From Arthonia radiata (Eukaryota > Ascomycota > Arthoniomycetes > Arthoniales > Arthoniaceae), in contig PSQN01000001.1 of NCBI GenBank assembly GCA_002989075.1, positions 124,001 to 188,000 of the forward strand: a stretch of DNA of 64,000 bases, written 5' to 3'. Of this stretch, positions 8,717 through 57,424 are shown piece after piece. Each line of letters starts with the position of its first letter. Position 1 is the first letter of the stretch. The notes under the pieces are model-generated. The model searched no databases. It was not told the DNA's origin and saw only the letters and a program-made list of their open reading frames with translations. The position numbers were made by a program, and so were the translations under genes.

Positions 8717-9237
8717 GATTGTATACTTGCCGGTATTAAACTGTGAAGCAGGTGCACCCCTTCTGGCAGCTGGGTCTTGTTTGACAGGCGTGAAAGCAGA
8801 CCTGGGTCTATTGTTCCGATTGAGAACGTCTTGAGAAGCAAACGAGTATGCAACAACCGGTAAATCAGGAAGTTGTATGACAACGAGATCAGCTTGGAAC
8901 CGCTGGGTGCATGATATCCCAGTAGACGAAGAACAGACGACAGAAAGGCTCCTTGTTCCTGAAGCGTCCCCACAGTCTGGGTCGGGATGGCATCATCAAT
9001 CGGCGGGGGGCTAAAAGCCAAGATTCTCGGAGATATCCAGGTATCGGCCGAAATGGCGTGCTCGCTTAAGGCTCAATGGCGCCCGAGAAAAGTTCGCCGT
9101 CATGAGGAACGCTGCACGCTGGTCTGAAATTTCCGTCTCGTTGCCTCCATGGACGAGCTTCTTTTTTGCTGACGTCTTGTACACCGAGACTTCCACCAAC
9201 CTTTGGCTTTCCATCCGTCAGCATAAGCACTGCAGAG
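8717..9237. promoter_or_regulatory. Divergent FMP52/MET10 promoter region
   Basis: 521 bp between the FMP52-like start codon and the preferred MET10 ATG (9238), GC-balanced, holding no convincing gene. It contains a 10-bp sulfur-regulator-type site at 8987-8996, a related half site at 9076-9083 (ATGGCGCC) and a CRE-like TGACGTC near 9170. Confidence 0.6.
8987..8996. promoter_or_regulatory. Candidate CYS3/MetR-type bZIP site
   Basis: ATGGCATCAT matches at every position the palindromic consensus ATGRYRYCAT described for the Neurospora sulfur regulator CYS3. It sits about 240 bp upstream of the MET10 ATG. A 10-mer of this degeneracy can occur by chance, so the support comes from its position upstream of a sulfur-assimilation gene. 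Confidence 0.5.
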
Positions 9238-16660: not shown

Positions 16661-19600
16661 GGTATATGGCTTTTATCACATTCCGACTAGTATAGTGGGA
16701 AGGTAGGTACATAAGGATAAGACGGAAAATATAGATGCGTCTATTATGTAATCCCAGTATATACCTAATTAGGCGATTCTTTACTAGATATCTTATATCT
16801 TAGTATAACTATCTAAACTAGATAATTCTATATACAATATACTCTCTTAGAATTACTAATATTAGTAATAATAAGCTAATATTATTATTTTTAATAACAG
16901 AAATAGCCTCCTAAAGGTAGTAAGTAATAAAGGAAATAGTATATATAGTATAGCTAAGTATAGAGCTCTAATTATTAGATAAAGCCTTACTATATTAGAA
17001 GTAGTAAAGGCTTAGTAAGACTATTTATAGCTTAATCTATAGTATTTATCTTTTATATATAAGTAGAGCTATTTTTAACTAATTAGTAATAGATATAATT
17101 AGCTAGATTAATATACTTAGAGCGCTTATAATTAGTATATTTAGTAGCTAAGTTAATAGTATTATTACTATTCTTATAGATTATAATTAGTAAATTAGTT
17201 AATTTAGTAAAATAAAGTTACTTAATTATATTATTTAACTAAAGAATATCTCTAGTTATTTTAAATAAGATATAGTATTTAGCTTTAATAGTAAAAAAAA
17301 CTATCTTTTTTTAGAATTTACTATACTAAATAATAAAGTTACTACTAATCTTAATAATAAAGCTACTTATTAACTTATAGTTATCTAAGTTACTAGTATA
17401 GTTAGTATTACTTAAAATATTAATAATAAGATAGTTATATATAGTAAAAAGTAAGTTTAGCTAGTAAGTACTCTTTAGATATTAAAATAGTTATATAACT
17501 ATCTTTTAGTATATATACTTAGAGTTATAATTAAATTTAATATATATATTAGTTTAATATAAGATATTTAGTTAAGTTTAAATAGTAAAATATTATAATA
17601 ATCTAGTAGCTAATATATATAGAATAATCTTTTCTAAAATATTATACTAATAGTATAAGCTTTAAGTTAAAAATTACTAAAAGACTTTATTTTATTATAG
17701 TCTTTTATATTAAAATTATATAGTATGTTATTAATATATTATAGCTAGATTATAGTAAGTTTTTATAGTGTATTCTTAATAATAAGCTTTAGAAATAAGT
17801 TAGTTGTTTAATCTATTTTCTTAATTTTACATTTTTTTAAAAATTCCTTTTAAGCTAGTAAATAGCTTTAAAATTAGATCTAGTAATTTTAATATTATTA
17901 ATATAGATAAGTACTAAGTAAGTATAGTTTTTATTAGTAGATAGATAGACTTTAAAAAAGAGGCTAATAAAGCTTAATTTCTATATTATTTCTTTAAAGT
18001 TATCTTACTATAGTATAGTAGACTACTTTAGACTATATAGTAAGTTCTAGATATAAAGAACTATATCTTTTTCTTTAAGTTCTTTTAAAAACTATATATA
18101 TAGTAGTTTTCTATAATTCAATATACTATTAAGATAGATATTAATAATATTAACCTATAGAAAGGTTTAGCTAAGCTATATAGTAATAGTAAAAAGTATA
18201 TATAATATAGGTATACTTATAGTTAATACTATAGTATTTTAGTAGTTAATTTTATATTATTATTTAAAGCTATAGGTAACTAAATATATCTTATATTTAT
18301 TAATTATTCTATTTAAATAGTATTTTTGCTTAAATATTAGTATACTTAATATTAGCTTTATATTCTTTAGAAGACTTAATATAGAATAGTATTATATAGT
18401 GCTAGTATTATATAGTTATTTTAGCTTAGCTTTAGATATAAAGTTCTATTTAAAAGTATCTAGCTGTCTTATAGCTTCTTTATATAATATAGAATTAAGT
18501 AAAAGCTTATTAATAGTAGCTATAGAAAAAATATATAAAGTAGATCTAGAAAGTCTGTTTCTATTAATATTATAATAATTTTAATAAATTATTTTTCTCT
18601 CTAAATAATATTAAGATTAAACTATTAGAGATAAAAGTTTAATTTCCTTATAAGAATATTCTCTAGTATTAGTTTTATAATATATAGATATCTTAATAGT
18701 AAATTAAGATAGAATATTATCTATTTAGAAAGACTATAATTCTAGAAGAATATCTTTTATCTAGTAAATATATTTCTTTCTTTTCTTTTTAATAGAGTTC
18801 TCTATAGAACAGTATTTTTCTATTAGAAGATAAGATAAGATAGAAAATAAGATAAAATAGAACGTTATATACTAGCTTCTAATTTACTAGCTTTACTTCT
18901 ATTTTTATTCTATAGAGATAGAATTAGAATAAGAGTAATATTTTACATTCTAATATTTCAAAAATAAGTTAAAAGAGAGATATAGTAAATTCTATTTTAA
19001 TAGAATATTCTAATATATATTTTAATACTATAAAAGTAAAATAGAATTTTTTAAAAAATTAAATAGAAGATAAATTTAAGTTAAAATTCTATTAAGTATA
19101 TAATTACTAAGTATTCTAATATAAAAAAAATTATTTTAATTATTTAAAAAAAGATTTATAGCTAAATAAGCTTCTATTTATATTATATATATTTGTATTA
19201 GTTTATAGCTATTATATTTATAAACTATTTATTTATATAAAATTATTTTTTATTATTTATAGTAGTTTGTTTTTCTATTATTATATAATTAATAGCTTAC
19301 ATATACTATTAGCTTTAGTCTTTTTTTTATATTTACTATAACTACTATCTTTTATTAGTACTACTTTTAAAGCTAGTTTTAATATTACTATTAATACTAT
19401 TATAAATATTAATATTAATATTAATACTAATATTACTATTATTAAATTAAATAATAGACTTTTATTAGTTTTAGTCTTAGTCTCTTTATATTTCTTTTTT
19501 TTATCTTTTCTATTATTATTAATATAAATATACTTCTTATTAGACTTCTTTAGCTTTAATATTTTCTTTTAAATATTAAATTATAGAGCTTCAATATTGT

Positions 19601-20640
19601 TAGTCTTTTTTAATATACTCTCTAATATAATATTAAGTTATATTTACTTATTATTTTTTATATCTTTTTTATATATAAGTATAATATTATTAATAGTTTT
19701 AAAAGTAAATAGTTAATTAAAGCTAATAATAGTATAAGTATATAGAAACTCTTATTTATAATTTATACTACTAAAAAGAATTATTAATATATTATATACT
19801 ATATAAATAAGATATAAAAAATATATCTTATATTATTTTTAAGTTAATAATAGATTTATATTAAAAAAACTAAAAATAATTAAGTTTATATAAACTTATT
19901 AGTAAAAAGATTATTTTAATATAATAATAAACTTATTTATATCTAAATATATTATAACTTAGTCTTTACTTACTATATTACTTCTAAGTATTATATATTA
20001 TAGTACTAATAAATTATTCTTAAATACTTATTAGAAATTCTAATGTATAATATTAATATTTTAATTTATATAGAAGTCTTTAAATATATTATTAAGCTTA
20101 ACTTTATAAAACTAGCTTTAATAATAATACTAAGTAAAAAGAAGCTTTACTATAGTATTTACTATTTATTTCTTTATATTAACTATATTATAGTACTAGT
20201 ATTATAGTTATAGTTCTCAGTATTTAAATTATATATAAAGTAAATTATATAATTTATTAAATTAAAAAGCATTATAACTCTATAGAAGTAATTAAAAGAC
20301 TTTTATATTTAATTATAATACTTTTAAATATTACATAGTATTTATTAAAACCTTAATAGAGATTCTTTTATTATTAAATTAATTTATATTTAAGCTTTTT
20401 ATTAAGTTTATTAAACTTAATAAATAAATAGTTATAAATATTAAAAATATCTTAAATTTATAAAATCTTATATTCATTAAATTACTATAATATAAGTAAA
20501 AATAGATAGAAAATATTATAAAAATACTTTATTTCCTACTATTTATTTAAAGATTAAAGAAAATATTAAATATCTTTTTTAAGCTATTATTAAAATATAG
20601 ACTTAAAATAAATAAAGTATAAAATTATAATAATAGTTAA
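16661..20640 (-). mobile_element. Ty1/Copia retrotransposon remnant
   Basis: On the minus strand, a partial LTR (16661-16841) is followed upstream by Copia RNase H (about 17000-17400, where the NYTSDLDNYK region corresponds to the family's D.A.D..DRKSTSG) and reverse transcriptase (about 17700-18250, with a YINNI block in the YVDDM position). The 57996-58999 fragment is a second copy of the same end. Beyond about 18.5 kb the sequence is almost pure A/T and the 5' end cannot be placed; the stated end is where composition changes near 20640. It is old, with very many disruptions. The 3' LTR is truncated at the border with the gene island. Confidence 0.8.
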
Positions 20641-30444: not shown

Positions 30445-30917
30445 TGTAACGCCGGTCGCTGAGAGAACCGAACTAAGGCTTACTTGCCTTGTATGCTTAT
30501 TAACCTTAGTAGTAGTTGTCTTGTATACTAGAGACTAAAAGGTAGGAGAGGCGAAATAGATTATAGAGGGTAAGAGGGGCTTAACTAAAGTAGATAGAAG
30601 GTAAAGTATATTATTTAAATATAGTTAAGAAACTTATATTTAGATATTAAGTTAATAGACTAAAGTCTATTCTAAGGTCGGCTATTAGTCTAGCTATATA
30701 GTTTAAGATACATAGGAAAGTTTCTTTGTGTCCGTTAACCTAACAATACTTATATAGGGTTTATAGAGAATATAGGCTCTTATAGCCATCTTGTTCAATA
30801 ATGTCTACGGCGGGTTTATAGGCTTAGTCGGGAATAATACTAGTAGGGCTAAGATAACTAGCAGTAATTAATACTTAGATGTGCGCTAGGCCGTTTAGAG
30901 CTAGTATCTATAATACA
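30445..30917 (-). repeat. LTR of the 30445-37785 Gypsy element (element 3' LTR)
   Basis: 473 bp, TGTAACGCC...TAATACA in + orientation. Pairs with 37315-37785. Confidence 0.92.
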
Positions 30918-33900
30918 ATTCCCCCTCTTCTAGTTAAATTGTCCTCGATTGATTCTTAGCTCGTTAAATACCTATAAGTTACGTATCGTACCTTCTCTTG
31001 TCTTTAATCTATAAGTCGCTATACCTCGCATAAAGTCTGTTGCTGCGGGTTCTAACAAAAAGTATAGCTAATACCTGCTAATTAAAGCCTATAATATCGA
31101 AATACCTTCTTGTTTTAAATATATGTCGACTAAGAAGAGGTATATAGTTTAGTTTAGGAAGGCAACGTATTCGATATATACTCGAAATAGAAAGAGTTGT
31201 AATTTACGAGTATCGATAGTAGATAGTATACCTAGTAGTTATCTTTATATAATATCTAGAACTAACTTAATTGTAGTACGTTTAATTTATTCTTAATACT
31301 TCTCTTAGTTGGCTACTCTTTAGCGTATAAAGCGCTAACTACGCGCGATAAAGGCTTAGACCGCAGCGTTGGTTATAGCTATATAGCGTAACCGATCTAA
31401 GGTTCGAAAGTTAAAAGAGAAGGTTAAGAAGACTTGTACGCGGACAGTAGCGAAGTTAGCTTAAAATAAATTATTGGAGCAAGAAAAGTTTCCTGCGTCG
31501 ATAGCTAGTAGCGATATATTTAAATATTTAAGCAGATTATTCGTTAATTTTTAGAGTAACCCCTACCTAGAGTTAGATAGCGGTCCAATAACGTAGTAAG
31601 CTAGCTCGTTTAAGGATAATTTAGGTGCTAATAAGGTACAATAGATAATAAATTAGAGTATTGATACTGCTATAGCCAATTAATATTTTAGTTCTAATAT
31701 TGCTAAACGGTGTCTTTGTAGTTAGCTAGGTTTCGTTTCAGTTTCTATTAATTTTTATGTTTAGAGTATCCTTTCTATTTTATAAGATACTATCGTTTGC
31801 CTCGATATTGTCTATAAGCTTAAATTGTTTCGACCTTATATTCGGGTTCTTAGTTGTCTAGAAGGATTTTTAAATTGGGTCGTTCTACTTTTTAAGAGTA
31901 GACTAGTTTTAACAGCGCTACGTAGAATATAGGATATATTCTTATTGTCTTTAGGAGTTTAAGCTTAAATATTATAGATTTTAACTGCTGTAAGATTTTA
32001 AATAGTTCTATCTTAGTATAGTCGAGTTTCTTACTTAGTCTAATAGTTTTTATATTTCTTATAAGCAAGTAAGCTCTTCCTCTCTCTTTTATGCTTGCGT
32101 TTAGGGTTGTTCTTAACTTATTATACTAACTTCTGGTTCGTTCATTAATAAACTTGCTGTTAGACTTTAATTACTGATATAGGGTTTTTATGTTTATAGC
32201 TATTTGCGTAGCTATTTTATTTTCTATAGTATTCTATAGTTGTCTGCTTTAAAGAGGGTGGTAGCTATACAGTATATAGAACGGAATTATTTTTGTTGTG
32301 TCGTTCTTTGTATTATTATACGCGGCTTGCGCGACTAGTAGTAACTGTATCTAGTTGTTTTGCTAGTAGTTAATATATATTTAGAGATACTATTCTAGTG
32401 TTTAATTTGTTTATTCTATTTATCCGTCTATTTGCAGGTAGAACGACATAGATATTTTCTGTTTTGTCTCTAGTTGTTTTATTAGGGATGTTTAAAATCG
32501 TAAAACAAATTTTTAGTCTCTGTCTAAGATAATTCTTTAGGGTTGTCTATAGTTAGCTAAGATAATACGAAGGAAGGTATATACTAATTGTTCTAAGTTG
32601 CTAGCTTCCTTATAAGATACGAAGTACGCGTACTTTATTAGTTTGCCGCATATAATTAGAATAGCATTGTAAGCTACTTCTGTTAGTAAATTCTTGAACG
32701 TTAGTAATTTAGTAATAAAGTTTAGTAAGACTATATATTATAGCCTTTCGGGTATCTTTAGTAGCTGTAATTCACTGTATAGTAAATATCTTAAGTGCTT
32801 AGTTCTTGCGTATACGTCGCATTCTCGAATATAATTCTCGATATAATGTCAGATTTTTGGAATATAGTAGGTTCTCGTAATCTTTTCTATAGTATTATTA
32901 ATACCCTTATATCTCTTTATTGGGTTATTGTAGAAGTTACTAATAATATGTTGGATTAGATTCCTTAGAATATAGATTTTGCCTTAGAATTTATAATAGC
33001 CTTTATTACTCTTAGTTAGTTCTAAGTGTTGTTTCTTGTTTTCCTAGTAGGTCTTAGGGTCGTTTAGAATGTCTGAGACTCGGTTGTCTAGTTCGATAAT
33101 AAACTCGGTTGTTATAGCTAATTGATTGTATCTAATCTTATTATTATACTCTTAGAATATTGCGTGCTCGACGTGTTCCTTATTATTAAGGTAATTGGGA
33201 CGTCGGCTTAGAGCGTCGGCTCTATCGTTCTTAGAACCTTTCTTGTAGATAATAATAAAGTTGTATAGAGCTATAGTTTCTAACTATCTAACTTGTCTGC
33301 AATTAAGTTTTTTTGTCGTTATAAAGTAGATTAGGTTCTTATAGTCTGTATATAATACAATTATATAGTTTGCTCCTTTTAAGTAAGCTCGCTATATCTC
33401 GAATACTGCTATAATAGCTAAAAGCTCTTTATTGTAAATATTATAGTTTTGTTCTACAGGTAATATTTTTCTTAAGTAGAAAGCTACTGGTCTAAGCTTT
33501 CTTTCCTTATTATTTTAACTTATATATACTTCAATTATATAGTCTAACGCGTCTATTTCTATAATAATTGGTAAGTTAGGGTTAAATATTGCTAGTACAG
33601 ACTTAATCTTAAAAGCTTCCTTAAGCTCTTTAAATACTAATTGTTCTTTCTACGTTTAGAAGAATTCTATCGATTATTTTATTTATTAAGACAGCGGTGC
33701 TATAATTCGGCTAAAGTTAGATATCTATCGTCTATAATAATTAGTAAAACTAAGAAACTATTGTAATTGTTTTATATTCTTTAGTATAGGCTAAATTAGA
33801 ACAGATTAAATCTTTAAATCTTTTATTTAAAGACTATGCTCGGTAATTATAAATCTAAGAAATTCGACGGATTGTTAGTAAAACTGAGTTTTCTTGATAT

Positions 33901-36900
33901 TAATTTGTAAATCGGTACACGCTAATCTTTCTAATACCTTCTTAATATATTTCTTATATTCTTTTAGTATATAGCTATATACTAGAATATTGTTTAGATA
34001 AGCAGTTATAAATATATCTAGGTAATTACTAAGTATATTGTTAATTAATTTCTAGAATAATGCTAGTACGTTAGTTAGCTTAAAGAGTATAACACAATAC
34101 TTAAAAAGTCTGTATCTAGTATAGAAAGCCGTTTTCTATTCTTCGCCTTTCTTTATATAGATTAAGTTATAGGCTTCTCGTAGGTTAAACTTAGTAAACT
34201 ATTATACGTCGTACAATTAGTCTATTATTTTGTTAATATATAGTAAAGGGTATTAGTTTTTAATAGTTACTCTGTTTAACTATCTTTAGTTTACATAAAG
34301 TTGTAGTTTACTATTCTTCTTTAGTACAAAGAGTATCGGGTATCCGGCTAGTAATATTAACTTTTAGATAAATCCTTTTTTAAGATTTTTGTTAAGATAG
34401 TCGTAGAGCGCTTAGTTTTCTGCTTCTAATAGAGAGTATATTAAACCAAATATTAGTGTTTTACCTTCTTATAAAGGTATTATATAATCCTATAGTTTAT
34501 ATTCTAGGAGCGCTGGATCCGGTTTAGCTTCCTTAAACAGATATTAGAATTAATTATATTCCTTAGGTATCTTAGTAATTAACTAAGTACTTGTTGTCGT
34601 ATAAAATCGTTGGCGTACAATTGTCTCTTATTTATACTTGCGTATAGTTAACTATAGACAAGATACTACGTTAAACTTCTCTTGTAAGATATCTAAGTAT
34701 CTAAGTATAGTAATACTAATCTACGTAAGTTCTTTATTACGCTCCTTATCCTTACTACTAAAAATAGCTTATAGAGTATTTATTCCGCAGAACGACTCTT
34801 ATTTAGAGTGCTTATACTTAGTAAAGAGGAGTTTTTTAGTTCTTTAATCTACTTTTAGGTTATATTGTTGTAACTAAGGTATACTTAGTACAGCGTAGTA
34901 CTGGTTAATATTTATAATATTATAAGTAATTTCTTTCTAATAGTCTCTAATAGTTATATCTATTGGCAAAGTCTTATAGTCAATTTTTTCCTCTGCCCCT
35001 TAAAATTTAGACAGTGTATAGGGTAATTTCTTTTTTTATATTTATATTTACTACTCCTTAACGTAGCGTATTAAAATAAAGTTGCTTGTTGCGTCTAAAT
35101 CGATTATAATTTTAATATTTCTGTAGTTTATTGTTGCCCGAGTGTGCAGGTATATTCTATAGAAAGTTAAGCTTGTACAGAGCTAGACTTCTAGAGGGCT
35201 TAACCGTTAGACGGGTCGGTACTACTGCCCTTAAAGTAGTCGGTCTAGTCTTTTCCCTGTTAATTGTATACGTTCTAGACTATTCTAGATACCGGAACCT
35301 ATTGTCGGTTTATTTGCTATAAGGGTTCCTGTATAGAGTATTTTAATACTATCTTTATTATAACGTCTAGTTTATTGTTTATAATCTCTACTTTAATTAT
35401 ACAACTATTACTAGTTAAAACTTATTATATCTATAGATTGTATATTGTTAGTTAAAGATATTAGTACTAACTACGCAATTCTAGACTTCTAATAAGGTAG
35501 TCTACTAGTCGTCGTAGACGTAAGTAAATATATTTTAAATTATTATTAATATCTTTATTAGCGCTTAACTTCTTATTGTAAAAGGCTAACTAATAAAGTC
35601 TCTATATTATTTCTTTCCAACGGATTAGAGTTTGTTCTTTCTAATTAGTATCGTTCTCGAGAGAGGATTCTATACTATTAGAATCTATATTTTTGTCTTT
35701 AAGTCGTTGTCTTGCCTATAACGCATTGTAGCTACTATCTTACTTAGCTTCTACGGTCTGTTCTTCCTTAAATTTCTCTTAGATCTCTAAATAAGGTAAT
35801 CTAGGTTGTTTTCGAGTAAGACCTAGTTCTTGTATTAAATCTTGTTTTAAAGATATTAGTTTTCTTAGCTATTATTTTAATTCTAATTTATCGGATTTAT
35901 AGATCGTACAATTGTTATCGTAGCACGTAGTTTAGAATAGTGTTTCGTATAGTGCAACGGTATTTTATACCTACTGCCTTGGAATAGTGCGATTAATGTT
36001 ATTTCAGTTCTATAAATTTTGTTGTTTCTATTTTATTTGTCGTTCCTTTGTTTCTTTCTATAACTTAATGTCTGTGTTTTAGTTTTTATATAAGTTAAAT
36101 AAGTTCTACTCGTTGTATTTCTTGTTAAAAGAAATCTAGTAAGTATCTTTCTAGTTATAGAAGGTACTCTAGTAGATATTCTTCTGCTTCTTAATTAGTT
36201 TAGTAACGTACTTATACTAGTTCTAGATAGTCTTCTGTAAGAGACCTAATTCTTAAAGGAGACAATCTTTAATTGGGTCTATCTGTTAGCAGTCGGAGAA
36301 GGCTGCTAGTAATTTTATTGCCTTATTGCAACCGTTGTTCTCTTTTATCTAAATAGTTATATTAAACTATTGTCGTAGGAGACAGGGTTTCTAAGATCGA
36401 TTATTATGTTTGTTTCTACCGATACTATTAAACTATTGTTTCTTAGAACAGTATTCTTTAACTTAATGCCCTAGTTTTCTGTAATATAAGTATAGCTTGT
36501 TCTTTATTCTATATTCTCGTTTCTAGTTGTTTAGTTTCCCTTAAGACTTAGTAAAATCTAACTTTATTGGATCGCCTCGGTCTTATTAAGAGTTTGCTCG
36601 ATTTTTTGTTCTATAGAACCTATTAGTAGGGTTACTCTTCTTTTCTATTTATCTTTTAAAGTTAGTGTCGTCGATCTTCTTCGCTCGTTATATAAAGTTA
36701 TCGAGATTATCGAACTTCTCTTTATAAATATAGATTATTTTCTTAATATAATCCTTAAGTTCTTTATAAAAGGTCTTAATAAGGGGTTTCTTGTTCTATC
36801 CTGTTTAGTTAGCATACTATATAAATTCGACGGCGTACCTGCTCGCTAATCCTATCTACTTAAGGTTTCTAAGCTTTCTAATAGCGACGCGTCTAGCGTC

Positions 36901-37314
36901 GGTCTATCTAAAGATTTTACAAAGCTTCTTCTAAAAGAAGATAAAGCTAGCAAAGAACTTGTTGGTATCCTTGCGCCTACTCTTTATCGGGGTAAACAAG
37001 AAATCGTCGAAGTAGTACTTAATCTACTTGTAGACATCTCTATCTATATAAGAGGTAGCGAATAGAACTATAGTAGTATCGTTCAGAAACTAGTCTTTAT
37101 AAGTTTTAAAGTATATAGCTAGGCGTATTAAAAATAAAGTAACTTTAAAACGTTTATCTAAGAAGCTTTTTTCTATCTTAGTGTTAATATTTAATATCTT
37201 ACTCGTACTAACTATTCTATCGGCTAACCTATTTATAGCGTTGTAGCTATTGAATATCGAAGTAGTAAATATAATTAATCTGCTTTCTCTACTTTTATAG
37301 CGAGTCTATTAAAG

Positions 37315-37785
37315 TATAACGCCAATCGCTAGGAGAACCAAACTAAGGCTTACTTATCTTATATACTTATCGACCTTAGTGGTAGTTATCTTGTGTACTA
37401 GAGACTAAAAGATAGAAGAGACAAGATAGATTATAGAAAATAAGAGAGGCTTAACTAAAGTAGATAGAAGATAAAGTATATTATTTAAATATAGTTAAGG
37501 AACTTATATTTAAATGTTAAGTTAATAGACTAAAGTTTATTCTAAGGTCGGCTATTAGTCTAGCTATATAGTCTAAGGTATATAAGAAAGTTCCTTTATA
37601 TTCTTTAACCCAATAATACCTATATCGGGTTTATAGAGAATATAGACTCTTATAGCCGTCTTGTTCGATAATGTCTACAGCGGGTTTATAGGCTTGGTTA
37701 GGAATAATGCTGGTAGAGCTAAGATAACTAGCGGTGGTTGATGCTTGAATGTACGCTAGGCCGTCTGGGACTGATGCCTGTAACA
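37315..37785 (-). repeat. LTR of the 30445-37785 Gypsy element (element 5' LTR)
   Basis: 471 bp, TATAACGCC...CTGTAACA in + orientation. The small open frame on the minus strand across its right end (37631-37915) crosses the LTR/target junction and is not a gene. Confidence 0.92.
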
Positions 37786-38503: not shown

Positions 38504-39300
38504 AATTAGATTAAGACTAAAATACCGACTCTAAGGAAAAGATGCAGCAGACGTCGATCGTAACAGGCAACATTATATACAGAAAGAGTAAATTGTAGGC
38601 AATTGTTATACGCTCTACAAAGATTAAAAGCTTTAGACATAGAGATGTTTCTCTAGATCTCTATATCATTAATTAAGCCCTAGCAAGCAGCCTTGTATAG
38701 TGCTCTATTAGTATTAAGTCTTGTCTTCTAACGTCGCGCATTCTTCTAAGTAATTAATTTATAAGAGGCTGTAATAGCTAGCATAGCGCTAACATAGGGT
38801 AGTTTTGCGCCTTGCTTGTTTGTAGTAATATTCTGCTTCTACTACCACATTCACGCTTCTAAAGCTGTCGACGGCATTAGTGCGATCTTATCCTTCGTAC
38901 CTTTGCAGTTCGCTCGTCTGCTCTGCTGGAACTCTCGCCTGTTCTAGCGCTTCACTTTACTCGTAAATATCTTGAAACCGCCTATCAACCGCTATACCAG
39001 CGCTTGCGCTGCTCTTTATTATCTTTAGATAGAGCCTAGCGTTTTTAGCCTCGCAAGCAGCTTCGGAGGAGGGTCTTGAAGAAGGCTAGTAGAGAACTTT
39101 AATGCGGCACTCTGTTAGCGGCATCTACGTCGAGAGGCACCTATAAAAAGCGGCCGATTTGTGCCTTTCTTATTAGCACGCGTAGCGAATCTCAAGATGC
39201 TTTGTTGATTGAGCTATCAGCGCAGTCCTTTCCGGCGGAAACCTTCGAACCGCCATTACCGTCGCTATTAGTAGGAGGCAAGTATTGTATATCCTCTTGC
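38504..39300. other. Partly decayed DNA, no gene assigned
   Basis: Mixed composition between the end of the Myb/SANT-type repeat and the Myb-like fragment. The stretch from about 38850 is noticeably less AT-rich and may hold the 5' part of the gene whose Myb-like domain is at 39310. No confident exon found. Confidence 0.4.
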
Positions 39301-39309
39301 CTTAGTACT

Positions 39310-39475
39310 AAGGCCCTAAATCGCCGCGCTAGGTCTAAGCTAACAGAGAACAGGCTGCTTATTAGGCTGGAGGACTAAATCTGTTTATAAAAAGAGATAA
39401 GCGAGTATTTTCCGCACCGTACTATAAGTACGTTGCAAGTACGCTACAGCTCTCGCCTGAATTGCAAACGTACTA
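39310..39475 (+). pseudogene. Myb/SANT-like DNA-binding domain fragment
   Basis: The + strand reads RRARSKLTENRLLIRLEDQ, then EISEYFPHRTISTLQVRYSS. This matches the fungal Myb-like pattern of an acidic first helix, a long second helix, and EISEHFPHRTxxALQVRYS in the recognition helix. One stop lies between the halves. It is less RIP-affected than its surroundings, which suggests it is single-copy and distinct from the 38.4/51.7 kb repeat, though the same domain type. No complete frame is visible. It could be the remains of a transcription-factor-like or transposon-associated gene. Confidence 0.55.
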
Positions 39476-40080
39476 AGGATTAGTAGACAATAACAATATT
39501 GTCTCGCAAGGACACTAGGGGGGGTAGAGTAGGGTCGTTTGAATAGTAAGCCTGATAACTAGTTCACATACTGGTCTTTAAGGTGTAGATTACAAGAAGG
39601 GCTGACGGAACTCTAAGAAGGAGAGCAAAAGGCGTTAATCTTATAGAGCTGGCTGTTGCTTGGTTTTCTGCTGTCGTATAGATTATCGTTCCTTCGTATA
39701 AATGCTTTCTAATGCATTTTGCCTTTGTAGTGCGTTGCGAACTAGACTGTTAATCTTAATTATAATCGCTTGCAAAACCTATTCTCTATTTTCTAACTAC
39801 CTGTAAAACTCTATTTATCCGGAGTAAAGGCTAGCTAATTAAGGAAATTCTCAACTCTTGTTTTACTTACCTTATTATATCTATAGTCTGATCTTAAGAC
39901 GTTCCTAAATAGAACCTTCTAATGCCCGTCGGTTTACTAATATAAAGTGCTCCATTATATAGATAGCAAGCAAAATGCTGTTAGAAGCTTTTATAGAACT
40001 AGGCTTTATACAAACTATACAGGGATTATAGAAGTATAATTAATTAATTTTCTAAGATTTAAACGGCGGCTAATCTAAAA
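39476..40080. other. No gene recognised
   Basis: Decaying sequence between the Myb-like fragment and the 3' end of the NLR pseudogene. No frame or family seen. Confidence 0.4.
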
Positions 40081-40092
40081 TCTAGGTAATTG

Positions 40093-40686
40093 TCTTTAAG
40101 TATCAATATTACCGCGTTTAGATCTTCTCGAGACAAGTCTATTTAACCTCTAAGAACGCCGATAGCCGTATTTTAAATATCTTATTAAAGGTCTTTAAGT
40201 ATTAATACTACCACGCTTATAACTTCTTAAGATAAGTCTGCCTAATCTCTAAGAACGCTAACAGCCGCGCTTTAAATATCCTAGTAAGGGTCTTTAAGTA
40301 TTAATATTACTGTATTTATATTTTTTTAAGATAAGTCTACCTAATCTTTAAGAACGCCGACAGCCGCCCTTTGAATATTCTAATAAAGATCTTTAAGTAT
40401 TAACGTTACTATATTTATATCTTCTTAAGATAAGTCTATTCGACCTTTAAGAACGCCGACGGCCGCCCTTTAAATATCCTAGTAAGGGTCTTTAAGTATC
40501 AATATTACTATATTTAGATCTTCTTAAAATAAGTCTATCTAAACTCTAAGAACGTTGACGGCCGTCCTTTATATATCTTAATTAGAGTCTTTAAGTATTA
40601 ATATTACTACGTTTAGATTTTTTTAAAGAAAAGTCTATCCGACCTCTAAGGACGTCGACGGCCGCTCTTCAAATACTTATATTAGT
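40093..40686 (-). repeat. Six tandem 99-bp HEAT-type repeats
   Basis: Exact 99-bp period, with unit starts at 40093, 40192, 40291, 40390, 40489 and 40588. On the minus strand each unit reads roughly NIQRAAVGVLKD, then DLS.EDI, then LILKD. This fits the fungal NACHT-HEAT pattern DVRxAAAEALGxQSxLSEExLQAL. Units are still very similar to each other apart from C/T and G/A changes. Confidence 0.88.
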
Positions 40687-42960
40687 ATACTAAAGCAATA
40701 CCGTTACCTGTTCTAGGATCTTTTTGTCTAATCCTACGCTTAAGATCTTTATAAAGTTAAGGATAACAATTATTAAAGATATAGAAACATTTTTTCCTAA
40801 CTAAAAAGCTGCGATATAGGCAATATCTATAGAGATTATTGTCCGCGTACCGAGATACTTAAGAAGTATACGTCTTACGTTCTCTAAACCTTTCTTTAGT
40901 ACTTTATCTAAGACTTGCTCTAGTATCTCGACTTCTTCTACTAAGCTTAGAGGTCCTATGTCTCCTAGATGTATGCATTAAAACAATGATAACTAGAAAA
41001 ATCAATCTTCTAGCTGTATTCAAGTCTTAGTAATTATTAATGTTTCCTCTTGTACCGCGACTTCGGCTAAGTAGTATATAACTAAACGTCTATATATTAG
41101 ACTCAGGAGATTACGTAGTTCTTTCTTAATAGTATCGAAAAAATAGCAAGATTTCTTCTTGTCTCTAGAAGACTGCAGCAAGCTGGCAACAAATCGCTAA
41201 AAAATACCGTACCGCGCGTTGTATCTCGCTTTTAGGAGGAAATCTTTAGCGCTAATAGGTTTATTGATCCTAGTATTTAAGTTTAAACAGTCAAGCTAGG
41301 TTTTAGAGATCTATTTCCGTACAAAATACGCTATAGTAAAGTACTATTAGTAGGTTAAATATATAAAGTAATAAGTCGAATTATAATATGTCTTAGATAT
41401 AGAATATAATGTACGTATAAATAAGAGCCTTGTAAGAGTAGCTTCTAGATTCGATTTAAGCTAGAGGCAAGAATATTTAAGTATTGTGTTTAGATAGTCT
41501 AAACCGAAGTTAAGAATATTATATTTAAGACCTATAAAGGCTATAATCTAAAGAAACTATACTTCTCTTTCTATAAGAGGTATAATCTAGGAAATAGAAA
41601 AATATTCTTCTCTCTTCGATCTACAAAGTATTTGAAGCTTTAAAAGATCTTTACGTTATATTTTACCCGCTACCGTTTCGTAGAGGGCGGTTATTGTCTC
41701 CAGTATATCTTAAAACCTAAAATTAGTACTCTACGTATAATAAAGTGCGTCCAGCTAAACTAGAATACGGACGAGGTCTTAAACAAGCGGATAGGTTTTG
41801 AGAAAGATTTAAGTTTATAAACTTTTTTCTTTTTGCATTCGTTTGTATCTAGGTCGGTAAAAGCTGTCTTAATATATTTCCCTACTTAATTGTTGTAGAA
41901 TCCGACTACCTCTAATTTAAGGTATAGAGGCTTTAAATCTACTAGAAGGTTTCTATATAGTCGAGATATTATAATAACATTAGGTTAATCTAGCAATTCC
42001 CTTAGAAACTAGAATATACTGCTCTCGCGATTCAATTTTTAAGATAACTCGTCTAATCTATCGAGAATAAATAAGGTTGTGTTGTTGGCGCTTGTAGGAC
42101 GGTTATTACGAACTTTACTTAATAAAGCCTTAGCGAAGCTGTCCGGTTCCTAGGCGCTACAGAATAAGATCGAAATAAACAGATTCTTGTAGCTAAGAAT
42201 GTCGTTTAAGAGACATTTTAGATATCTTAAAGATACCTAAAGGACGTAATTAAACATTTTTCTTTACTTTAATTTTTAATTAACGGGCTGGCAGATAAAC
42301 TTATATACAATTTTTTATACAGAGTAGTCTTACCGACGCCGGTACGGCCCTAGATTAAGATCTGTCTCGTTAGATGCTTCTAACCGTCTATCTTGCGTGC
42401 ATTAAAGAGTTCTAGCAGGTTAACTCTCTGTTCTTTGTACGGCTCTTCTACCTTAAGCCGGGTAAGAAGGGTAAATAGAGAAGATATATACGCTAGATAT
42501 CCTTCGACGCTACTACGAACCCTATCCGACTGTTTTACAATAGCTATATTAATGTAGCAGTGTTCTATAGGTAGGTCTATCTAGAGAGTTGTTTAATATT
42601 TAAGGCCTTCGTTAAATACACTTTCTTATATATCTAGATATCGGCATCTCGAATTCTAGACCCTGTTAATATATTAGCTCCTTATTATAGTCTCTAATAC
42701 TTATAGCATTACTAGCACGCTAAGCGGACATTTCCTTAATTACGCTACTAACAAGCTTAAAGTTAGAGTTATATAGACCGCAATACTTGTTTATTATAAT
42801 ATAGGGTACATTTAGAGTATAGTATTTATAAAGCATAATTATAGTTAAGTCCTTCTTAACAAGCTATAAACATTATTGTTAACTACTAGCTTAAAACTTT
42901 AGAATAGTTACTTACGATACGTTTTGTCTAAGAAAAGAATAACGCTAGCTATTTAGATAG

Positions 42961-43467
42961 TGTTAAAAAGGTGCAGGGAAGAAGAAGGATACTACTACAA
43001 AGAGTAGGAAGACGAGACTAGCTTGAGACTAGTGCAATACTCAGGCTCAATACAGATACAATACTTAGTAGCAAGGAGAAGCTATTGTTATATTGTCTAT
43101 CTTGTTAGCTAGAATCCTCTAGAGGGATCCTAGCTTATATATCTAAGTTTAGCGGCCCGTATAGAACTTACTAGATATCTATTCTTTTAATAGAGGCTAA
43201 ATAATCCGTAACTTACCGTATAAGATAGTAATTCTATTTATCTAAAATTATTAGTCTTTAAGTCTATTCTGTGTTGTCTTAGACTATAGGCCAGCTGTCT
43301 AGAACGGGTCGTACAATGCTTCTTTTTGTTCTAAACTCGGGATACTAGGCCCGACCCTTTAGGTAAAAGGCTTGTTCTATTCTAGGCCGAGACAGCTAGT
43401 AGAACTTATTTAATACTCTGGGCCCCTGAGGGTTCCGGCTAACCAGCTAGTTGGTTAATTTTTAACA
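42961..43467 (-). repeat. Solo LTR inside the NLR pseudogene (507-bp family, copy 2)
   Basis: 507 bp, TGTTAAAAAGG...TTTTTAACA, the reverse complement of 26861-27367 and exactly the same length. It is flanked by GATAG (42956-42960) and GGTAG (43468-43472), a 5-bp target duplication with one transition. It is inserted between the hydrolase-like and NACHT parts. No internal element sequence remains. Confidence 0.9.
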
Positions 43468-44628
43468 GGTAGTATAGCGTTTAGTAGCTATATTAGTATT
43501 ATTCTAAAAATGTATATAGTCCTACTTCTTATCTTTCTATCTTAAGTAGCGTAAAGGAAGGATTTAGTAACTTCTTGTAGCTTACTAGTACGGCCCTCTA
43601 GATCTTTAATTAGCGTTTTTAAAATTTGTTCGCTAAGAATACTATTTATTATAATTCTCTACTATACTGCTTGGGCGGTACAAGTGCCTTATAAAGGAGA
43701 TTAAAGGAAGACAATGCTACGCGTAGCTGTTAAAATATTAAGATACGGGCTCTCTCTACGGTCTATACTTATAAGAGCCTAATTACAAAGATAGGGGGTT
43801 AGTAGATTTAAAGATATAATAAGCCTTAAAGGATATACTTAGGTAAGAACGAGGCCTCTAAAACATAAAGCGACAAAGATTAAGGGCCTTAAGTAGCCAT
43901 TGTTCTTATAACTGTAAATTTCTGTTAACGTAGACTATATACGTTACGAACCTTGTTTTATTCTAGTCTTAAGTACTGTAGCAGGACTTAGCCAACGTTA
44001 AGGATACGTATAACTAGTATATTTTTAAGATATTAGGAGTTCTAATCGAAAGTAAATGTCTATACAAACAGTACGACGCTTAGTAGCATATCTGTATTGT
44101 AGAGCTAGTTAATTTCTCTTGGGCGATTATCTTCTGTAGAGGTATTAGCTAACTATATTACAGGCGAGGTAGTTCCAAGGCCGTATATAGCAACAATACT
44201 AAAAAGTTGTTAGATCTAAGAGCTTTTATACAATAAAGTACTAAATTTCTTACTCGACGGTACTTGTGTCCTGAGACCCCTTAGACAGGTAAAATTTTAC
44301 TAGTTGTTGCTTAAAACTTATCGTAGACCTAGAGATAATAGTACAACAACGCTAGAGGCACTAGGAACGATAAGTTATAACTCGCTCTTGAGAAATTCTA
44401 TGGCGGTATCTAGTAAGACGTCCCTATAAAAATTAAAGAATATAGTATCCGTAAAGCCTAGGCAACAATCAAGGCAAACGGTATTTAATTAGGACTTAGA
44501 TAGCGTAGATAAACAAGAAGGGGCTAGTATAGCTCTATATAAGCCTTAGCAAGGTATCTCCTATTAACCGAGACCTTCTTGTTGCATTAGCGTCGATAAA
44601 TGCATAGTAACAAGCTTTTAATTAAATA

Positions 44629-45695
44629 ATGGCTAGAACAATAGTTCTAGTACAACTTAAACTAAACAAAGACCTTAAAGTTTCTAGAATAACACTGGTA
44701 GCTTTAGATAGACGCTACCCTACTATAGAACGGCTTTCGGGCCAACTAAGGATTCCCTTAACATTACGCGCTTTGCTCGATATTTATTTAGACTACAAGC
44801 ATTTAATACTAAGTCTTAATGTACTTATACCGCGACTCTAGCTAGTAGTGTTTCTATAAATATTACGGTAAGATAGACAAAGCTGATTGTAAATCGATTA
44901 GGTCTCTATACCTCGGTATTAGTACATCTCTTCTATATATATATATAAGCTCTACGCGACTATAAAATTATACTTACCAAGAATCCGCAACTCTATCTTG
45001 TATAGTACTATAACCGTATATTTATTAAGTCTATCCTAAGATACCTTCTCTCCTCTGCCTTTTAGCAATACCTCGATTAGAACCTAAGGAAGATAGACCT
45101 TCGACGTACAATCGTAGGCTTTATACGGACGTATATATAACTTATTCGATACAAGAGTAACTTTAGACTAGCTACAACAAAAGAGCTGTTCTTAATACCT
45201 ATTAATAATAGATCGGCTATATTAGACGCTACTACTAGGATTACATTTAAGCGTTTCGTATAGTTTATTGCCTTCTTTAAGAAGCTACCGAATAACGCCG
45301 TTAACCCTCGATATATATATAGCGAGCTTAGGCTTACTTAGTTAAATATTTGTGCTAAAATCTTCTTCAGGAAACTAACATTCTATTATATTAATAGCTA
45401 GTAGAGTAAGTTTCTCAAACGTTTCCTTAGTTTCTTCCTCCCGATTTTCGCTATAGTTTTAACTACGCTAAGCGCTATATAAGTCGAGCTTAGCGTATAA
45501 GAGTCGTTACGCGACACAACGGCTCGATAGACGGCGTTCTCGAGCGCTTTGTAATAGTTCTTATATACGATCCTTATTCTTATTGCTACCACAACTCTAT
45601 TCTTTCTGATGCTTCTAGCCTTCCTACTACTCTATAATATCTAGTTCGCAAGGTCTATCCTTTAATAAAAGTATCAAAGTAACAGTATTACCTCA
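44629..45695 (+). pseudogene. DUF6601-like membrane protein relic
   Basis: Read on the + strand across frames, blocks match a fungal family I know as DUF6601. They are: ILTKNPQLYLV.YYNRIFIK (family REIxxTExMDxHLVWTTGRIFLKP), ALGFIRTYIYLIRYKSNF (family ALGFLYTYxxLISxESDF), NPRYIYSELRLTQLN (family PRFxxGELRLSRLN), then two hydrophobic segments (FLSFFLPIFAIVLTTLSAI and TTLFFLMLLAFLLLY). The family has two C-terminal membrane helices and no known function. Several stops and frame changes, together with AT enrichment, show it is dead. It starts about 160 bp from the NLR relic in head-to-head orientation. Confidence 0.7.
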
Positions 45696-46630
45696 GCGGA
45701 CTTTAAATCGGGCGTTATATAAGCCCTCGCGTTAGAGGAGCAAGGATAGATAGAGAAGTAAAGCTAAATTATTTATACTCAATTCTCTACAATTCTTAAC
45801 AAAAATATTGAGCCGCCGGCAGGCATAGATAGTACCGCTCGGTCGATCTCCCGGCCTAGCAACATCCTCCCTCTATACCGTTAGGCAAGGCATACAGTCC
45901 CACTACAACAAGCTCGGCAATAAGATCTCAACTACGTTTTTATAGCTCGTATATCTTCTAATTTATATATACAACGCACTAATTACTAGCTTTATAAGCG
46001 CTACTTGTATATATATAAATACAATCTATACAATACTACAGTACTTAGGTTATAGCCTGCTTACAATACTTAGCGTTTTTTGCGCCGCTCTTCTTCTACA
46101 ATCTATTATCGTTCTAACTTTAATGTACAACGTAGAACGCTTAAGGGCTTATAGGCGGTAGTAGCAATAAGTTAAGCTTCAACGAATAGCAGAAAGGGAA
46201 GGCTTACTATATACGTAATCAGAACAGTAGCGGCAACGAAGGCATAAAGAAGAGCGACATTAGTAAGAGTAGCAGTAGTAGCAACAAAAGGAAGTAGATG
46301 TCCAAAAAGCTCAGCAAAATTAGAGGCTTGCCCAAAAATTAAGATTATAAATAGAGCAGAAGATATTTAGAGGGCGGCAAAGCGCAACAAAAGTTTGCTA
46401 GATCCTCTTTTAGTTACGGTTATCGGTGTCATATCGAGCCTCCTGAGTGTAGGTGCAATTTCTACGAGTATATAAGCAGTCTCTCAGAGACCGGCCAACA
46501 CCGTAGATCGAATAGCGATAAAGTTATTCTGTTTACTATCTTACAAATGTGTTGTATAGTGTAGCTGCTCCAGAACATATAGCTCTCTGCTCCCTGGACA
46601 TTGATTAATTAATTTAACTATTGTTAAAGC
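45696..46630. other. Decayed DNA, no gene assigned
   Basis: Mixed AT-rich sequence. A + strand stretch near 45930-46110 has hydrophobic runs and 46190-46400 is rich in Lys, Arg and Ser codons, but no family is recognisable. Composition returns to balanced near 46630. Confidence 0.4.
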
Positions 46631-49405: not shown

Positions 49406-50169
49406 CTTGCGCCTAAACCCTTCATCTTGTGCACAACTCCCTGCTTAGGCCGCCTCCTCTCTGCCACTGCACGAGAAGAAGAATGGATTTTGGTCGAGTT
49501 TGAGTGTTTGAACGCGTAGCCTTTGTCAAGAAATACACTCCACCCCTCAAGCAGCCCATTGGGCCTGTTTGCAGGCCTTTCCACCCCAATTCGGCGCCAG
49601 TCCGCACCTGCAACGGCGCCGAGAACGCCCCACCAGCTACCAAACCCCTTTGCGATTCTTAACGACGGCATTGAAACACCGGTAGACATAGACATGACCC
49701 AAGACGGGGCAGAGCAAGAGCAGGAGGGCGCAACGGTCCTCCAGGAAGCTGCGAGTAGCAGGATAAAACGATAAACACACCGCTGTAGAGATTGCAGGAG
49801 GGACTATTGCAGCTACGCTAAGCTCTCTAGTCAGGCAGGTCAGCATGCCGTCTGACCGGATGGCGTCGATAGAGGATAGGCATTGCACTGCCCGACGACC
49901 TGGTTGAGGAGCACCGGTGTAATTCTATCTGTGCAAGACTAACGAAGTGACAACGCAAAAGTTCCCAGTTGTGGTTATGCTCTACGTCACCACGGGCTCG
50001 TCGTCAGCGCTGATTTCAAGTCCGATGTGTTGGGACAATGTTCGCAGGCTCCGCAGCCTGGAGCAGGAAATCGCAGGCGTCTCCGCAGCGTCACTTTCAG
50101 AAGCCCCGTCGTCTCAGGTACGCGCTCTAGGCGCAAGTATCGGGTACTGAATAATGAAGGTAATTTTCA
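49406..50169. other. GC-balanced, one weak small frame
   Basis: Not obviously RIP-affected. A + strand frame at 49523-49774 (83 codons, containing TPHQLPNPFAILNDG and a Gln/Glu-rich tail) is the only candidate. It has no recognised family and may be chance or a degraded exon. It ends at the Myb/SANT-type repeat. Confidence 0.35.
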
Positions 50170-54805: not shown

Positions 54806-57223
54806 TTATGATAGCTGAACAAATGCCCACAATGGGGCTTGAGATTTCCAGGCGTCTTTGTGGGCAGTTCCAATAGCGACTCGGTGCAAGTACTGACCTC
54901 TCGTAACGACAAGCATAATTTTATAGTAGGACCAGAGCTGAATGACCGCAGGCTTTCTTGTTGTGTTGAATCCTTTATCAACAAACCAGACATCATTCGC
55001 GTTGCCTCCGAAGCCACCCCTCCATACAGTTCTCTCCGTGCTTTTCGCTTCACAAATGAGAATGAAGGTATGTGCCTCTTGACGGAACAAATCTAGTGAC
55101 TCGTTAAAGCGTATTTGTCCAGATTCGACTCCGTGACGGTCAATAAGCAAAGCATCTCGAAGCGCAGGCTGAGCATCAGGGTGGTCTGCTGTAGCTTTCT
55201 TGATCGTAACGGGAGGCCTTACGACGTCGCCAGGAACGACTCGAAATTGCGCCACTTCGGCCCAAAAATAAAGCACCCCAAGCTGCATTGTGTGCTGGTC
55301 GAAGAAATTTGAATTTTGGTTGGAATGGTAGTGATTGCCGCTATCGTTGAGCTTAGACACGGTAATTGTACTTCTAGTATAGCTGTTGTATAGGACGAGT
55401 CTGTTTCGCATTTCACCCTGGTCGAGAGCGTGAGCTTCGTATTCGACCTCACCATGCCAGGCCACCCATGTCCAGCTTGGCAAAATCGCATCTTCTGGAC
55501 CGAAACCAACCCAGCGTGCATTTGGTCGATTTCCAGAGGCGGTTCTCACGGAGAGCGGCTCACGTGCTTCCCAAAGCAGCGCATGTCCAAGCTTATTGCT
55601 AGGTACACCTAGAATGAATGGAGTAGAATGGAGTCTCTCTAGAACTTTGGTAATTCCTATAAAGGCTTTAAGCACATCTTTAGAGACGGAAAGTTGCCGT
55701 TTCGAATACGAGTTGACAAGATAGGGAAAGATGTCCGTAAGCTGGCCATCTGACGACTGCTCGTAGATACGCGAGAACATGTTTCGAGCTCGGCTTGGAA
55801 ACTTGTCAACTTCCAGATCCTTAGAGAGTCCTTCGCACGCCTCTCCTTGGGTGCATTGGAAATAAGTCTGATACTTCGTGAACACCAGGCATTTCTTGGA
55901 CAGAACCCTCTCTTGGAATGTCCATGCTCGTGAATTCCACACGGAAGACTCTATGTCAAGTTTGCTGTATGGTAGCAGGTTGCTCATGCGTATGTTTCCC
56001 AGAGACTCAGACCACTGATGTACAGATCTTGAACTTGAAGATGATATTCCAGGGATTGGAGCTTGAGCGGTGTCACCCCCTGCCGCGATAATGGTCAGAA
56101 ATGCTGAGGAATATATCCGATCCATTTGAGATATTTGAAAGTATTTATGATCGTTATCATCTTGAACTATGCAGAGGACATCAACCCAGAGATATCTTTC
56201 GCCAAGTCTTACAGTAAGCTCAAGCGCGTCTTCGATAGTTGCTGGAAGTCTGGGTCTGCAAGGTAGATCTAGATCTTTCATTTCACCATACGGACTGAAA
56301 GAGTTTGATTTTGTTGATCGAAATGTTTGGTTCCAAGGAGGACCCCAGACATAACTCAGTGCAACAAATCTACACCGGGATGGTGCCAAAGTTACCCTTC
56401 GTTCGAGAACGTCAACAAGTCTCAATCTCCTTCTTGGCTCGTAATGGTCCCATTCCGAAATTGCGTCTGCACAAAGATGGCCATGCCGTGATTGACAATT
56501 ATTGAGCCAGCTTTGAAGAAGCTTGAAATTGCAAAACTTATCGACAGGAAGGCCACTGAAAAGAGGTGGGGTCTGAGAACCTTCCTCAAAAATGCTGAAT
56601 TCTGGACCATGCAAATTAAGCTGAGGATCATCAGCTTCAGGATGTCGACGATTGAGATGCAAGTGATATAATTTCTGCAGGCCGTGCCCCAGAGTCGACG
56701 CAACTGAAACGTACCCGCTGCGAAGAGAATAGTCTTCTTCAAACGGAACCAGCGCACAACCAGTGTAAGATTGAGGCTGCAAAAGCACCGATCTCATTGT
56801 CAGCTCGAGTGTAAATGCAACGATGCGACACATTGGGCAACTGGCGTTTGCAAAGATGTCATCGAGATAGCCTAAGTCCACGCTGTTCGCAGGCCCATTT
56901 GCTCTTGAAAGAGCGTTGAAGTTAATGTCCGTATGTTGTGGACACATCTTTTGGGAGTGCTGTCCCTGCTGTAAAGCATCTGTACTGTAACGCTTAAGAA
57001 GATATCTAAGCTTTGCACGTCTTTGGTCGTATCGGTCCGATCTTGGAGTCGAGCGATGTTGTGACGTTAATTCAACGCCAAACGAGATTGATGATCCATC
57101 TGAATTGGTGATGCGCCTCAATGCAGCATTGGTACCATCGCTGGTTGCTTCCCCACAAAAGAAATCTCGCATGCGGCGAGATTGTTGATCCATCTTAGTC
57201 TTCGATGGGTTTAAATGCAGCAT
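54806..57223 (-). CDS. HET-domain (heterokaryon incompatibility) protein
   Basis: Uninterrupted 805-residue frame from ATG 57223 (MLHLNPSKTKMDQQSRRM); a second ATG at residue 11 is also possible. The N-terminal region has a CPMC pair near residue 130. The HET domain begins near residue 284 with RFVALSYVWG, continues with the LWVDVLCIVQDD block near 342 and YSSAFLTIIAAGGD, and ends with WNSRAWTFQERVLSKKCLVF near 432. These are the three conserved HET blocks. A long C-terminal part follows with no recognised domain. HET proteins trigger cell death after fusion of unlike hyphae or act in related recognition. GC-balanced and free of stops, so probably functional, although it is bounded by decayed repeats and flanked on its 5' side by one copy of a duplicated sequence. 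Confidence 0.9.
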   Translation of the reverse strand: MLHLNPSKTKMDQQSRRMRDFFCGEATSDGTNAALRRITNSDGSSISFGVELTSQHRSTPRSDRYDQRRAKLRYLLKRYSTDALQQGQHSQKMCPQHTDINFNALSRANGPANSVDLGYLDDIFANASCPMCRIVAFTLELTMRSVLLQPQSYTGCALVPFEEDYSLRSGYVSVASTLGHGLQKLYHLHLNRRHPEADDPQLNLHGPEFSIFEEGSQTPPLFSGLPVDKFCNFKLLQSWLNNCQSRHGHLCADAISEWDHYEPRRRLRLVDVLERRVTLAPSRCRFVALSYVWGPPWNQTFRSTKSNSFSPYGEMKDLDLPCRPRLPATIEDALELTVRLGERYLWVDVLCIVQDDNDHKYFQISQMDRIYSSAFLTIIAAGGDTAQAPIPGISSSSSRSVHQWSESLGNIRMSNLLPYSKLDIESSVWNSRAWTFQERVLSKKCLVFTKYQTYFQCTQGEACEGLSKDLEVDKFPSRARNMFSRIYEQSSDGQLTDIFPYLVNSYSKRQLSVSKDVLKAFIGITKVLERLHSTPFILGVPSNKLGHALLWEAREPLSVRTASGNRPNARWVGFGPEDAILPSWTWVAWHGEVEYEAHALDQGEMRNRLVLYNSYTRSTITVSKLNDSGNHYHSNQNSNFFDQHTMQLGVLYFWAEVAQFRVVPGDVVRPPVTIKKATADHPDAQPALRDALLIDRHGVESGQIRFNESLDLFRQEAHTFILICEAKSTERTVWRGGFGGNANDVWFVDKGFNTTRKPAVIQLWSYYKIMLVVTRGQYLHRVAIGTAHKDAWKSQAPLWAFVQLS

Positions 57224-57424
57224 TCGAACCGTCGCTGGACTTATTCAAGGATGATCGTGTTTATATTGTCTGATGGGTATTTGTCGAGAGCATGCGGCAA
57301 GGCCTTGAACCAGGTTGAGTGAATGCGTGCGTCAGCTCCAAGGCCCCTGATTTGCCTGAGCACCTAACGTTAAGATGTTATTGGCTCGAAACATAGTATG
57401 AAGTAGCGGAGTAAATCTATAGAT

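Follow-up and report, generated by a model that had tools for sequence, protein, structure and literature searches.

A likely relic of a SesB-hydrolase/NACHT/HEAT receptor gene, marked by repeat-induced point mutation and a solo long terminal repeat, in Arthonia radiata

The NACHT domains of fungal NOD-like receptors (NLRs) have been divided into a common T type and a NAIP-like N type, the latter being paired in fungi with HEAT repeats and SesB hydrolases (PMC12258605). Receptors of the N-NACHT/HEAT class are rare and patchily distributed in fungi, and their repeated gain or loss has been proposed (PMC12258605). Podospora anserina carries Pa_6_7270, a gene of sesB-like/NACHT/TPR(HEAT) architecture whose HEAT units are highly conserved internally and differ in number between strains (PMC4986451), as well as NWDp1 and NWDp2, two NLR pseudogenes inactivated by repeat-induced point mutation (RIP) (PMC1805685); in some strains nwdp-1, now called nwd6, is apparently functional (PMC12222747). 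We analyzed a 64,000-nucleotide stretch of the Arthonia radiata genome (C15:124001-188000, hereafter the window; 33.5 Mb and 16 contigs in the whole genome) that contains both GC-rich gene blocks and AT-rich tracts. On its minus strand, at about 40.06-44.47 kb, lies what is likely the relic of one NLR gene encoding a SesB-type hydrolase, a NAIP-type NACHT domain and a HEAT array, with a gene start that may have been near position 44470.

The relic is likened to Pa_6_7270 by a shared three-part architecture, but the Podospora gene is intact (PMC4986451). Similarly, its resemblance to the N-NACHT/HEAT NLRs of the Sordariales (PMC12258605) is one of motifs, and the locus described here is, in contrast to those, a pseudogene. 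With NWDp1 and NWDp2 it shares RIP that also covers the flanks; the WD arrays of those two were spared strong RIP (PMC1805685), whereas in the relic RIP is heaviest in the repeat array. Moreover, NWDp1 and NWDp2 have paralogues, while none was found for the relic, which in addition was damaged by the insertion of a long terminal repeat (LTR) element. Because of NWDp1/NWDp2 and nwd6, neither RIP-killed NLRs nor a polymorphism of intact and pseudogene forms between strains is new. Particular to the relic are the rare class to which it would belong, its RIP-mutated array and the lack of any relative found in the genome, and no earlier report of a RIP-killed N-NACHT/HEAT gene was found in the portions of the literature at hand.

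An earlier note on this DNA, made from its letters alone, had claimed that three NLR modules lie in order on the minus strand. This was borne out: the peptides that it quoted are present on that strand at or close to the positions given, and the hydrolase, the P-loop, the Walker B motif, a helical motif of NAIP type and the HEAT array follow one another in that order (Table 1). Its reading of 40081-44470 as one such gene agrees with the order of the modules, but they occupy different reading frames, and 42961-43467 proved to be a dispersed repeat and no part of the gene. The three motifs of the hydrolase, which we take to be typical of lipase-like hydrolases, occurred in order in none of 1000 shuffles, with expressions that were devised after the sequence had been seen. 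Motifs resembling the first and third of them are also present at L040 (C13:1779500-1788000), an NLR locus of the same genome with SesB-like motifs, an NPHP3_N-type NACHT domain and many ankyrin repeats.

Within the NACHT module, the P-loop, Walker B and helical motif have the expected order and spacing in the actual 4.7-kb sequence, whereas none of 2000 dinucleotide shuffles reproduced them together; singly, the P-loop arose by chance in 115 shuffles, Walker B in 68 and the helical motif in 16. In a six-frame scan of the whole window, the helical-motif expression matched once (41367), the P-loop four times and Walker B twice, one match each of the latter two being those of the relic at 42349 and 42074. 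The motif published for the helical third of N-NACHT is FhHxxhQE[YF]hxA (PMC12258605). Our expression comprised the first 10 of its 12 positions and accepted Y for H, K for E and a stop for Q or E; in the relic, FIYLTYXXYF is followed by T-I, Y standing in for H, stops for both Q and E, and I for the final A. When stops were read as Gln, the Pfam NACHT profile matched the P-loop and Walker B pieces at 20.1 and 16.1 bits; with X at stops the scores were 17.8 and 13.2 bits. The two pieces follow the order of the profile, although their reading frames differ. A profile built from 20 NACHT matches of the genome itself, including L047, later typed as NB-ARC, was run against six-frame chunks of the whole window, and the four that scored best all lie in the relic (E 0.06 to 0.17), as two overlapping chunks at each of two places and none of them significant alone. 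The best domains under this profile scored 8.6 bits for the Walker B piece and 6.9 bits for the P-loop piece, compared with 6.4 bits for the best of 300 shuffles. Pfam gave no match for the helical third (41029-41691) or for 40708-40995, and all NCBIfam matches fell far short of their cut-offs; for the P-loop piece, Avs4 scored highest (16.5 bits).

The array at the far end of the relic is a tandem repeat (40092-40675) of 5.9 copies of 99 bp, for which HEAT_2 reached 30.8 bits (cut-off 27.7) once stops were replaced by Gln. Its six units are 73-85% identical, with 255 transitions versus 62 transversions over the 15 pairs; when transitions are ignored, identity is 94-100%, and the units were therefore probably near-identical before RIP. 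High internal conservation has been reported for some of the repeats found in fungal NLRs (PMC4986451).

The hydrolase and NACHT modules are separated by a segment with many relatives. A DNA search returned at least 44 matches beyond the window itself, a lower bound with 40 of 491 candidates scored, and 42 of these match 42961-43467 over about 500 bp at 88-92% identity, the other two being shorter. We read the segment as a solo LTR, judging by its TG...CA-type ends and a 5-bp target duplication with one mismatch. Among 11 other copies, clean ends were recognized by expression in three (L014, L018 and L020) and in none of the remaining eight; L014 and L020 have identical 5-bp flanks, L018 does not, and L011 and L019 show equal 5-bp flanks by eye in the copy alignment. 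The insertion explains the gap between hydrolase and NACHT. Since the probable target duplication (CTACC/CTATC) makes the two sides adjacent before insertion, it suggests that they were contiguous and disfavors an origin of the modules from different genes, which the earlier note had named as a way in which it could fail. The C/T mismatch between the two copies only suggests one transition after insertion.

RIP is evident both in the indices of the tract and in the flank, where C-to-T change favors CpA. With a GC content of 0.335, 40081-44470 has a TpA/ApT ratio of 1.70, a (CpA+TpG)/(ApC+GpT) ratio of 0.41 and a composite index of 1.29, all beyond the thresholds in use (product > 1.15, substrate <= 0.75, composite > 0; PMC7882544). 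The directional CpA test concerns the flank and not the gene itself, for which no relative was found. Compared with its relative L024, flank 45208-45632 showed 62 C/G-to-T/A changes, 22 in reverse and 14 transversions, with 27 of 37 sites changed at CpA, 10 of 62 at CpT, 9 of 34 at CpC and 16 of 66 at CpG. A second flank (45825-46491) followed the same pattern against L023 (78 vs 22; CpA 35/72), while two short pieces near 49.5 kb, beyond the RIP tract, had a reversed bias (2 vs 13 against L023, 9 vs 20 against L025). The (CA+TG)/TA ratio was lowest in the HEAT array (0.122, compared with 0.296 in 40676-42955; p 0.006, with units that are non-independent and composition uncontrolled). The claim that RIP had erased an NLR gene is upheld by the indices and the flank comparison as far as RIP is concerned, but an LTR insertion broke the gene too.

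Several results weigh against reading this locus as a SesB/N-NACHT/HEAT gene hit by LTR insertion and RIP. Every single-frame NACHT piece stays below the 26.7-bit Pfam cut-off, and for the Walker B piece the unrelated family Elong_Iki1 scores higher (17.6 bits, below its own cut-off). Walker B itself, LFILDRLDE, has R after D where hhhhD[GAS]hDE wants G, A or S, and the helical motif lacks four residues of the published consensus (H, Q, E and the last A). HEAT_2 is absent with X at stops, its match needing the stops to be read through. No relevant Pfam match was obtained for the hydrolase with either X or Gln at stops, nor any in NCBIfam; this says little, because both SesB-like open reading frames (ORFs) of L040 (2/2) are likewise without a Pfam match at E <= 0.1. 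PDB sequence searches with three read-through pieces of the relic yielded nothing usable. An AlphaFold model of the read-through HEAT array showed alternating strand and helix and no helix pairs (mean predicted local distance difference test score 72), to which we give little weight because it was made from a single sequence without alignment and from decayed letters. In the LTR, comparison with six other copies revealed transitions both ways (18 to 34 vs 12 to 24). The earlier note had stated that the lack of any NACHT or hydrolase match above threshold would refute it. Taken literally, this lack is what was found for single-frame pieces, HEAT_2 passing with stops as Gln; in our judgement it is outweighed, because of the motif order, the shuffles and the HEAT match.

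The anatomy of the relic fits the rare SesB/N-NACHT/HEAT class, membership resting on motifs. By analogy, the HEAT array of the living gene would have been the ligand sensor, the NACHT domain would have provided nucleotide-driven oligomerization and assembly, and the SesB hydrolase would have been the effector with a lipase-like action. The genome holds 32 other NACHT-profile matches, and 29 of them also match NPHP3_N, which we infer to be a marker of the T type. As for the remaining three, L047 is NB-ARC, L053 has AAA as its best match, and L061 has a weak TPR downstream and neither an NPHP3_N match nor the helical motif. The N type was recognized in none of the 32, the helical motif being sought in L029-L049 and L062 and not in the short pieces L050-L061. 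HEAT_2 was matched elsewhere in the genome in 17 rows, all more than 50 kb from NACHT rows of the same contig; the one such locus inspected, L049, is the proteasome subunit RPN2. This first scan of the genome found no second N-NACHT/HEAT gene, though it may have overlooked one. BLAST of relic pieces against the genome's own NLR loci gave nothing convincing (best E 0.083), and quick protein searches of the genome recovered the relic alone. Because 29 of the 32 NACHT matches look like the T type and none was recognized as N, the relic may represent the sole trace of the N-NACHT/HEAT class in this genome.

The tract consists mostly of RIP-mutated repeat and single motifs do turn up in shuffled sequence, so the peptides might be chance products of decayed, AT-rich transposon DNA. 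We consider this very improbable, given the ordered motif triple, a HEAT_2 score above cut-off, and a stretch (40000-42955) for which no second DNA match in the genome was reported, unlike the surrounding repeats. A relic of the common T-NACHT type, or one with an N-terminal domain other than SesB, would agree with the degraded N-type motif, with the missing profile match of the hydrolase and with hydrolase expressions that were drawn up post hoc. On the other hand, NPHP3_N is unmatched in the relic in contrast to most of the genome's own NACHT matches, fungal HEAT repeats accompany N-NACHT (PMC12258605), and SesB-like ORFs without a Pfam match are exactly what L040 has; such an identity is accordingly quite unlikely.

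The sequence shows two kinds of damage to the gene: an LTR element landed between the hydrolase and NACHT parts, of which a solo LTR is left, and RIP changed C to T, chiefly at CpA, over the gene and its flank. Repeats present as possible targets of RIP are the LTR, the HEAT units and a 7.3-kb dispersed repeat that has at least 10 other matches over its full length, at 83-85%, with 10 of 462 candidates having been scored. The latter, itself RIP-mutated, ends 2.3 kb from the gene, and with an LTR sitting within the gene and no second copy reported for 40000-42955, RIP could merely have leaked in from neighboring repeats without the NLR ever being a target. Yet at 38801-40050 RIP falls below its level in the gene ((CA+TG)/TA 0.730 vs 0.296 in 40676-42955, p 1.9e-7), and it peaks in the HEAT array, at the end of the gene away from the LTR. 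Because RIP weakens between the 7.3-kb repeat and the gene, leakage from that repeat alone is a poor account, and we regard leakage as a whole as somewhat unlikely, although a full element once present at the LTR site may have been a source. A duplicate of the NLR that was struck together with it and then lost or segregated away would provide the usual trigger of RIP, is the cause proposed for NWDp1/NWDp2 (PMC1805685), and would suit the even coverage of the gene by RIP. No DNA-level partner was reported in the genome, however, though a like search found 77% matches for the flank, and this history too seems unlikely. The LTR element, the HEAT array or a since-lost duplicate probably attracted RIP, which is less well explained as leakage from the 7.3-kb repeat alone. 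More tentatively, and with doubt about the proposal in full, the genome might have lost its only NAIP-type NACHT/HEAT receptor through transposon insertion and RIP, with near-identical HEAT units having helped to draw the latter. If this were true, the patchy spread of this receptor class in fungi would be due in part to genome defense hitting immune-gene repeat arrays that look like transposons. The relic would be one such loss of the class with its causes still legible, namely an LTR insertion and RIP extending into the repeat array, and it exemplifies how immune receptors built from repeats come into conflict with a defense that punishes repeats.

Table 1. Features of the putative NLR relic and its neighborhood (window coordinates)
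Feature	Position	Strand	Basis
7.3-kb dispersed repeat, RIP-mutated, neighbor of the gene	30445..37785	+	
Weaker-RIP stretch between 7.3-kb repeat and gene	38801..40050	.	(CA+TG)/TA
HEAT array (six 99-bp units, 33 residues each)	40082..40675	-	tandem repeat, unit alignment, HEAT_2
Presumably helical stretch separating NACHT from the HEAT array	40676..41028	-	position
NACHT helical third, third frame; FIYLTYXXYF at 41367-41338, NAIP-type motif	41029..41691	-	motif expression
NACHT relic, Walker B piece, other frame (LFILDRLDE at 42074)	41709..42182	-	PF05729 16.1 bits, profile 78-164
NACHT relic, P-loop piece (GRTGVGKT at 42349)	42203..42580	-	PF05729 20.1 bits, profile 1-49
Probable target duplication copy CTATC (one mismatch)	42956..42960	-	
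Solo LTR, 507 bp, TGTT...AACA, between hydrolase and NACHT	42961..43467	-	repeat search, ends
Probable target duplication copy CTACC	43468..43472	-	
Hydrolase relic, second part, other frame (IFVALCFRGLV 43880, IVFLXSPLXGT 43715)	43479..43907	-	motif scan
Hydrolase relic, first part (IVAIYGLG at 44197)	43883..44260	-	motif scan
Upstream flank, RIP yardstick against unmutated relative on C3 (L024)	45208..45632	-	

Some further observations were made in the surroundings of the relic. The stretch at 38801-40050 has a higher GC content and short open frames. At L023 and L025, the relatives of 49503-49662 and 45825-46491 are joined end to start (49662 beside 45825), in reverse of their order in the window, an arrangement that resembles a circular permutation or a tandem junction. 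The minus strand carries an intact-looking ORF of 812 residues with a HET (heterokaryon incompatibility) domain (109.2 bits) at 54806-57244, some 10 kb away from the relic. On the plus strand, an ORF of 1116 residues with FAD_binding_1 and NAD_binding_1 domains (9106-12456), perhaps akin to a sulfite reductase flavoprotein, lies in a GC-rich block. Extreme AT richness was observed at 17001-20000 (GC 0.12 to 0.18), and CpA and CpG are nearly gone from 18001-20000.

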